Shown here piece after piece: positions 40,794 through 41,113 of a stretch of 54,525 bases of DNA (position 1 is the first letter of the stretch; every line of letters begins with the position of its first letter). Origin of the DNA: Bacteroidia bacterium (GTDB lineage: Bacteria > Bacteroidota > Bacteroidia > B-17B0 > Aurantibacillaceae). The position numbers and the translations under genes were made by a program. Under the pieces are notes generated by a model that worked only from the letters and a program-made list of their open reading frames with translations, had not been told where the DNA came from and searched no databases. Location of the stretch: contig JALHRL010000026.1 of the NCBI GenBank assembly GCA_022841465.1, positions 1-54,525 on the forward strand. The letters are read 5' to 3'.

Positions 40794-41113
40794 TTTTAAC
40801 CCAAAAAGCATTTAATTTTAATATTTAACTAGTCACTTTTTTCTTAGTCAAAAAAGTAACCAAAAAGACAAGCTCAAAAGATGCTTCAGCGCACAAGCAC
40901 CACTTCCTCGCCTTTTGAGCAGGCCTACGCACCTTTTGCTCCGAAAATTCATAATGCGAACTTTAACTTTTAATGTATGTTTTTGACTTTAGTGAAATTT
41001 AACAGCTAATACAAGCACTTTTATCAGGGTTTAACCGTTAATATCTTAAGGCTTTCAATTATTTAGCGCAAATAGTAAAACACTATTTTTAATGGTTAGC
41101 TAATTAAAAAAAC
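40794..41113. other. 320-base intergenic stretch containing a hairpin-rich element
   Basis: Only gap over 300 bases in the window. The left part (about 40831-40986) is locally richer in G and C than its surroundings. It carries two inverted repeats and a 51-codon open frame without a start codon. The right part (about 40987-41113) is AT-rich with nothing recognised beyond the leader of the flippase gene. Confidence 0.6.
40831..40986. repeat. Candidate dispersed repeat element with two hairpins
   Basis: Stem 1 is ACTTTTTT (40835-40842) with AAAAAAGT (40850-40857), loop of 7. Stem 2 is GCTCAAAAG (40872-40880) with CTTTTGAGC (40912-40920), both perfect. The frame from 40831 stays open for 51 codons but has no start or family match. 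From memory, closely similar sequence recurs in intergenic regions of many Bacteroidota genomes. Only one copy lies in this window, so the repeat call rests on recollection. Confidence 0.45.

Follow-up and report, generated by a model that had tools for sequence, protein, structure and literature searches.

The gap between psd and a flippase gene, two ordinary genes in the genome of a Bacteroidia bacterium, raises the question of what kind of sequence has come to lie between them. The window, i.e. the whole stretch of 54,525 nucleotides analysed here, had been described in an earlier note, which likened a hairpin-rich block at 40831-40986 to a repeat found in intergenic regions of unrelated Bacteroidota and left open whether it is a non-autonomous element or a structured RNA. 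The block is indeed one copy of a dispersed repeat. Comparison of its copies shows a dispersed non-coding element in whose ends structure is conserved more than sequence.

The copy between psd and flippase

The block differs in composition from its surroundings, as had been noted, with 51.9% GC at 40868-40946 compared to 33.3% in the whole window, and only 0.3% of 79-base windows are equally GC-rich. The two perfect inverted repeats described before are present, an 8-bp pair (ACTTTTTT/AAAAAAGT, 40835-40842 with 40850-40857) that lies within an 11-nt arm of 91% complementarity and a 9-bp pair (GCTCAAAAG/CTTTTGAGC) that makes up the two arms of stem 2 (Table 1). The 51-codon frame itself exists as well, and the ORF list holds no ORF of at least 45 aa with an ATG, GTG or TTG start in 40831-40986. 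By themselves, the two hairpins are near chance level and unremarkable in DNA of 33% GC; nine-bp perfect inverted repeats with a spacer of at most 31 occur 33 times in the window versus 18-28 times in three Markov shuffles, and eight-bp short-loop inverted repeats 11 times versus 6-26 times in three such shuffles. Since the hairpins are near chance and the recurrence is real, the weight of the observation comes from recurrence and not from the stems. The minus strand of the copy folds better than its own shuffles (z -2.81), which cannot be said of the plus strand (z -0.50).

The psd-flippase order is also found in the genus-mate G402 (G numbers denote compared genomes, G000 being the source genome and C26 and the like its contigs, while L numbers denote extracted loci). 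After the psd stop, G402 reads AATTA followed by ACTTTTATTAGGG (sequence AATTAACTTTTATTAGGG), whereas the window reads TTTTAAC and, past an insert of about 217 bp, ACTTTTATCAGGG. In the local alignment of the window with the G402 gap the score was 33, and 2 of 500 shuffles scored at least as high. Global MAFFT alignments placed the gap otherwise, thus the insertion boundary, drawn from the local alignment and by eye, is approximate, and the apparent insertion rests on a short flanking match. The coordinates of the earlier note fit the conserved A-type unit, yet the inserted segment is wider. No target-site duplication was seen at this approximate boundary. Wherever another psd locus of the genus included its 3′ flank, this gave no flippase match over the length examined. 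The G402 gap (L194) carries another palindromic insert (GCGAGTTCTA..TAGAACTCGC).

The unit at the window copy was delimited by a match of the covariance model R1, in whose training set (A1) the copy itself is included, and its continuation to about 40986 was traced by eye from a comparison with other copies. In the window copy, one end is clear, and a second is at best present in decayed form.

Table 1. Features of the element copy between psd and flippase, in window coordinates.
Feature	Position	Strand	Basis or remark
Segment of ~217 bp that genus-mate G402 lacks in its orthologous psd-flippase gap	40801..41016		local alignment and by eye
Conserved unit of A type; the minus strand folds	40832..40986	minus	covariance model R1 match G000:C26:40830-40934 minus, E 7.5e-16
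Hairpin 1: outer GTCACTTTTTT, loop CTTAGTC, inner AAAAAAGTAAC	40832..40860	minus	plus C.A is minus G.T/G.U wobble
Hairpin 1 loop, can pair with 40867-40872	40843..40849	minus	CUUGUC with GACUAAG: 6 pairs, one G.U, one bulged C; by eye
C and A-run (T-run on folded strand), hairpin 1 to linker	40861..40866	minus	
Linker GACAAG, loop partner	40867..40872	minus	family-level loop-linker pairing
Stem 2 arm 1 (GCTCAAAAG)	40872..40880	minus	
Stem 2 loop, 31 nt, words common to many copies	40881..40911	minus	A1 alignment
Stem 2 arm 2 (CTTTTGAGC)	40912..40920	minus	
Conserved tail AGGCCTACGCAC	40921..40932	minus	
Possible decayed inverted second end	40967..40992		22-nt 73% complementary to 40846-40867; weak, maybe chance

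Recurrence and architecture of the element

A DNA search found further copies on contigs C17 and C33 of the same genome, and relatives were found far beyond the species. The model R1, built from A1 (14 copies chosen for a perfect stem 2 and a short loop, out of 16 candidates of which two near-repeats were dropped), detects 8 copies in the source genome, 6 of which, the window copy included, are training members. Across Bacteroidota, it matches 65 of 395 genomes (37 of 171 genera) at E<=0.01 and 20 at E<=1e-4, these E-values being rough, calculated per genome and without a reversed control, so that a few of the 65 genomes may be false. The wording given in the earlier note, searched as the strict core pattern TACTTTTT-N4..14-AAAAAGTAACNAAAAA, recurs in 15 of the 395 genomes, with none in the reversed control. 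A looser pattern gave 185 matches in 31 of 40 genus genomes against 29 reversed-control matches in 20; as the control matches half of the genomes, individual matches of this pattern mean little. Three genomes (G413, G415 and G446) have 23-24 such matches each and no control match.

The repeat is found in many Bacteroidota, but its core pattern is not confined to them. At least 120 stretches of bacterial and archaeal genomes carry it, and among the 80 titled matches listed are records of Oscillospiraceae, Acetobacteraceae, Pseudomonas oryzihabitans, Motiliproteus, SR1 and Falkowbacteria. The core hairpin pattern is found in Clostridia, Proteobacteria and candidate phyla as well. The non-Bacteroidota loci, hand-picked from these 80 titles, come mostly from MAGs in which misbinning is possible, and include isolates such as P. 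oryzihabitans and Motiliproteus sediminis. They share the same hairpin words and loop-linker pairing, several of them with inverted pairs, and may be homologous or convergent. With a G413 element as query, no match was found in phages, while in five plasmid records one end matches over about 40-50 nt; 12 stretches of the viral_contigs set match. An end-like match lies right after an HU gene, beside a polysaccharide locus, in a Parabacteroides distasonis plasmid (L286), and occurs in three plasmid records of this species. Several stretches of Oscillospiraceae MAG contigs (L073, L082, L096, L114 and L126) start near an element copy, as would happen if a high copy number interrupted the assembly. 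Tandem arrays of units were seen in L282 and at G000:C33:21234-21738, with periods of about 290 bp and 201 bp. No account of this element was found in the literature searched; a paper on a Cardinium MITE was considered and, in its available part, concerns an IS982 derivative (PMC9769881).

Each end of the element is composed of hairpin 1 (GTCACTTTT..AAAAGTAAC), an A-run, a loop-pairing linker and stem 2. Complete elements in relatives consist of two such units in inverted orientation and are 0.4-0.9 kb long and mostly intergenic. In genus-mates, 12 pairs of convergent ends lie 417-591 bp apart, some of them at orthologous sites, and one pair spans 738 bp; complete elements of other phyla reach about 930 bp. 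A convergent partner accompanies 24 of 104 eligible copies, compared to 3 of 132 in the divergent control. Nearly all genus copies (87 of 90) are not within an ORF of more than 200 aa. The longest ATG ORF in 12 complete relatives is 14-44 aa, so a decayed coding gene is not evident. Two candidates for an autonomous version were rejected: the 1.83 kb between paired ends in L263 proved to be two elements around a 277-aa esterase-like gene, and the 738-bp pair in L254 has no ATG ORF of 50 aa. The names epimerase, polysaccharide and esterase were read by eye from sequence and not from a family search. Likewise, an array of attC-like gene cassettes was considered from same-strand clusters of R1 matches, and L330, the one of 16 loci that was inspected closely, shows tandem copies between ordinary genes.

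Many orthologous sites are common to different species at about 80-93% identity. Because so many sites are kept between species, many genus copies look old and inherited, and the evidence falls short of recent movement. At one orthologous site (L255, L264 and L268), the left module differs in three species and the right end is common. A sister end type, CTTCTTTTC..GAAAAGAAG, is found in the source genome at G000:C5:51227 and C17:54141 (L044, L045); its architecture is the same, and its stem is compensated. Another small palindromic element, unlike this one, ends in GAGCC..GGCTC and forms a clean insertion of 158 bp that is present in G413 and not in G400 (L254:9447-9606).

Pairing and the folded strand

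The rows of A1 were chosen for pairing, so that both they and the model R1 lean to it, whereas the test on 90 distinct copies (96 rows minus six repeats) is the fair one. In that test, stem 2 has a perfect complement of at least 6 in 36 of the 90 copies versus a mean of 13.3 and a maximum of 23 for shuffled partners, and its mean perfect complement is 4.99 versus 3.70 (top of 300 shuffles, 4.37). The other 54 copies are without a 6-bp perfect complement; by eye, many of them belong to a type in which the loop is long and the stem longer and interrupted. The sequence of stem 2 varies while the pairing stays, with 17 different 8-base arms in 24 scored copies. In A1, double changes are found in 7 of 8 stem-2 pairs, 93.8% of stem-2 cells are paired, and covariation of both helices combined is 0.668 versus 0.214. 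The loop-linker helix is 88.6% paired in A1, with one pair being G.C or G.U and no double change; variants in the larger set are CTTGAT/ATCAAG, CTTGAA/TTCAAG and CTTGAC/GTCAAG. This pairing exceeded every shuffle in all runs: 4.03 versus 3.28 in 129 rows collected with a pattern that also took some wrong-strand hairpins, 3.86 versus 2.88 in 126 cores, and 3.45 versus 2.77 in 42 non-Bacteroidota cores (highest of 500 shuffles, 3.10). Covariation had been proposed for the two stems first noticed; it holds for stem 2, together with the loop-linker pairing that had escaped notice, and the evidence comes mainly from these two and not from hairpin 1.

The mismatches are asymmetric. In the 90 distinct copies, 61 cells are minus-strand G.T/G.U wobbles (plus A.C) versus 3 of the opposite kind (68 versus 4 with the repeats still in), the ratio of plus A.C to plus G.T being 32:3 in hairpin 1, 12:0 in the loop-linker helix and 17:0 in stem 2. 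These cells count copies and not independent events, one position accounts for 21 of the 33 hairpin-1 cells of the 96-row count, and the stem-2 count keeps 24 of the 90 copies (an earlier run dropped 67 of 96 rows). The mismatch between outer GTCAC and inner GTAAC recurs at right ends and in Pseudomonas. This asymmetry argues that the outward-reading (minus) strand is the one that folds, which reverses the strand on which the structure was first read. The simultaneous formation of the pseudoknot on the folded strand may be strained, for it would leave almost no connecting nucleotides on one side.

A loop-conserved, stem-variable and wobble-bearing structure equally marks an RNA. In such a case the outward strand would be transcribed, and hairpin, pseudoknot and variable stem would form a regulatory or trans-acting RNA on a dispersed element. 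The covarying stem, the shared loop words and the G.U-type asymmetry agree with this, as does the position of a unit directly upstream of the same NAD-dependent-epimerase-like gene in three species (L274, L280 and L261), where the folded strand is the coding strand. However, the folded strand of genus copies is the same as that of co-directional genes in 40 cases and opposite in 30 (p 0.28), and the absence of bias to the transcribed strand is expected for DNA rather than for a cis-acting RNA. Moreover, the window copy is antisense to both neighbouring genes, and a complete element has two inverted ends. The element shares compensatory stems and conserved loops with the structured RNA families of Rfam 15, yet none of these reached its gathering score in the window and the 8 loci scanned; the 8 loci gave four sub-gathering matches, including TwoAYGGAY with E 0.2 in the Pseudomonas element (L124:3892-3954). 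Hence a structured RNA seems unlikely to us and, the wobbles fitting both, we lean towards single-stranded DNA, so that the choice left by the earlier note is tilted towards DNA.

Bidirectional transcription terminators, or mRNA-stabilising hairpins between genes, are hardly to be expected here. Convergent gene pairs surround 31 of 79 genus copies, a count without genome background, and in other phyla the ends appear by eye as GC hairpins followed by T-runs; yet no terminator-like site was found at the window copy, the strand bias is absent, and neither the loop-linker pairing nor the conserved words are needed for termination.

A further alternative is a conventional MITE, i.e. a deletion derivative of a DDE-transposase transposon whose terminal inverted repeats are merely hairpin-like. 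The inverted ends, the lack of a long ORF, the length of 0.4-0.9 kb, the mostly intergenic position and the multiple copies would all be accounted for, and the relatives agree with the usual definition (terminal inverted repeats, no ORF, less than about 1 kb), the second end being doubtful in the window copy. Nevertheless, no parent autonomous element with the same ends was found among the loci examined, which are short stretches, and no target duplication was seen among the sites examined for it, where the orthologous filled and empty pairs were mostly shared sites with one messy case. In addition, the stem varies in sequence while its changes are compensated, and a single end is by itself both palindromic and pseudoknotted, properties unneeded for duplex recognition. 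Such an origin is, in our estimate, quite improbable.

Kinship and putative mobilisation

The explanation that we prefer, with evenly balanced confidence, is a foldback element that is non-autonomous and has ends functioning as folded single-stranded DNA, similar to BIMEs and REPINs without being made of REPs. In outward direction, each end shows a variable stem 2, the loop and tail words of which are shared, followed by a T-rich spacer and a hairpin; the loop of this hairpin pairs with the linker at the base of stem 2. Since the complete elements of relatives have two inverted ends, both of their DNA strands carry the structure at the 3′ side. In the preferred reading, the unit would function as a folded single strand that is laid bare when the two strands separate in replication, transfer or repair. 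A trans-acting enzyme, either a nuclease or a transposase, would recognise the shape of the folded end, and through this putative mobiliser copies may spread between genes.

The ends of IS200/IS605 elements and the attC sites of integrons are folded single-stranded DNA on which an enzyme acts through its shape. In contrast to both, the present element has no TnpA/TnpB or integrase linked to it, and its unlikeness to the attC core was judged by eye only. Among known systems, as far as the available parts of their descriptions go, the element comes closest to the REP/BIME/REPIN units and to MITE-like repeats, for example R0/R2 of Pseudomonas fluorescens. REP/BIME/REPIN units with their TnpA-REP (RAYT) share with the element short palindromic units, inverted pairs, intergenic position and multiple copies, and REPs are processed as folded single strands (PMC6006769, available part). 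REPs as defined in that part have a stem of 7-20 and a loop of 2-5 nt or a bulged long form, whereas the stem-2 loop of the element is 14-35 nt in A1; they have GTAG/GTGG 0-2 nt from the hairpin foot, whereas 6 of 14 A1 rows have it, 3-5 nt away, the remaining rows showing GCGG, GTTG, GAGG or ACGG in its place. The loop-linker pairing is a further difference from the REPs so described. The two inverted palindromic units of BIMEs and REPINs are found in the relatives but not clearly in the window copy. The R0/R2 repeats also place two inverted repeats around a variable core at high copy number; they show a tail-to-tail bias and have been suggested to be MITEs (PMC2718517, available part). There they match known IS ends, whereas the ends of our element covary and its parent was not found in the loci examined.

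A Y1 (RAYT) transposase would be the obvious mobiliser of a BIME or REPIN. Genes of RAYT subclass 2.6 in Bacteroidetes are reported to be adjoined by "atypical secondary structures" (PMC6006769, available part), which could be relatives of the element, although the genus Y1 genes examined do not support this. Single-strand folding, inverted pairs and intergenic position fit such a system. Moreover, Y1_Tnp is present in 54 of the 65 element-bearing Bacteroidota genomes versus 217 of the 330 others (Fisher p 0.005, with no correction for ancestry or genome size), and element and Y1 copy numbers in the genus are weakly correlated (rank correlation 0.32, p 0.046), with element counts that take both strands and may count palindromic hairpins twice. 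REP copies, however, flank their Y1 transposase gene, whereas only 1 of 40 genus Y1 loci scanned with R1 has an element nearby (L376, E 0.0003), at 1.6 kb from the gene; these loci cover 43 of the 66 genus Y1 matches with flanks of about 2 kb, less at contig ends, and weaker matches (L351, E 0.1; L373, E 0.95) are no better than chance. Nine of these Y1 loci were checked for palindromes: in three, palindromes of another kind lie right next to the gene, two have none of 10 bp and four are ambiguous. Both Y1_Tnp genes of the source genome (G000:C33:16431 and C5:24320; L223 and L222) adjoin other palindromes, of CTCCCGCGCGAATCCTTTCGCGTG and CCCCGAAGGGGTT type by eye. Furthermore, 11 of the 65 carriers are without any Y1_Tnp match, and neither G368 (10 model matches) nor G400 (13 pattern matches) has one. 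The Y1 transposase is weakened as mobiliser by the loci examined, and a Y1-driven BIME or REPIN, such as the atypical structures described in the available part of that paper, becomes a very remote prospect. When the 3635 ORFs near elements were clustered, the 40 largest clusters showed no transposase and no evident recurrent neighbour gene.

It is conceivable, although we hold this only tentatively and with more doubt than belief, that the folded DNA element proposed above represents a phylum-crossing mobile class with pseudoknotted single-stranded DNA ends, freely drifting stems and a kind of enzyme new to such structures, possibly a major foldback group other than REPs. If this is right, many unexplained intergenic repeats, along with their accidental small frames, would form one structural class that extends from Bacteroidota as far as Clostridia and Pseudomonas. 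Its structure would then serve as a handle for fishing out the enzyme and for testing whether the shape of single-stranded DNA, and not its sequence, defines the ends.
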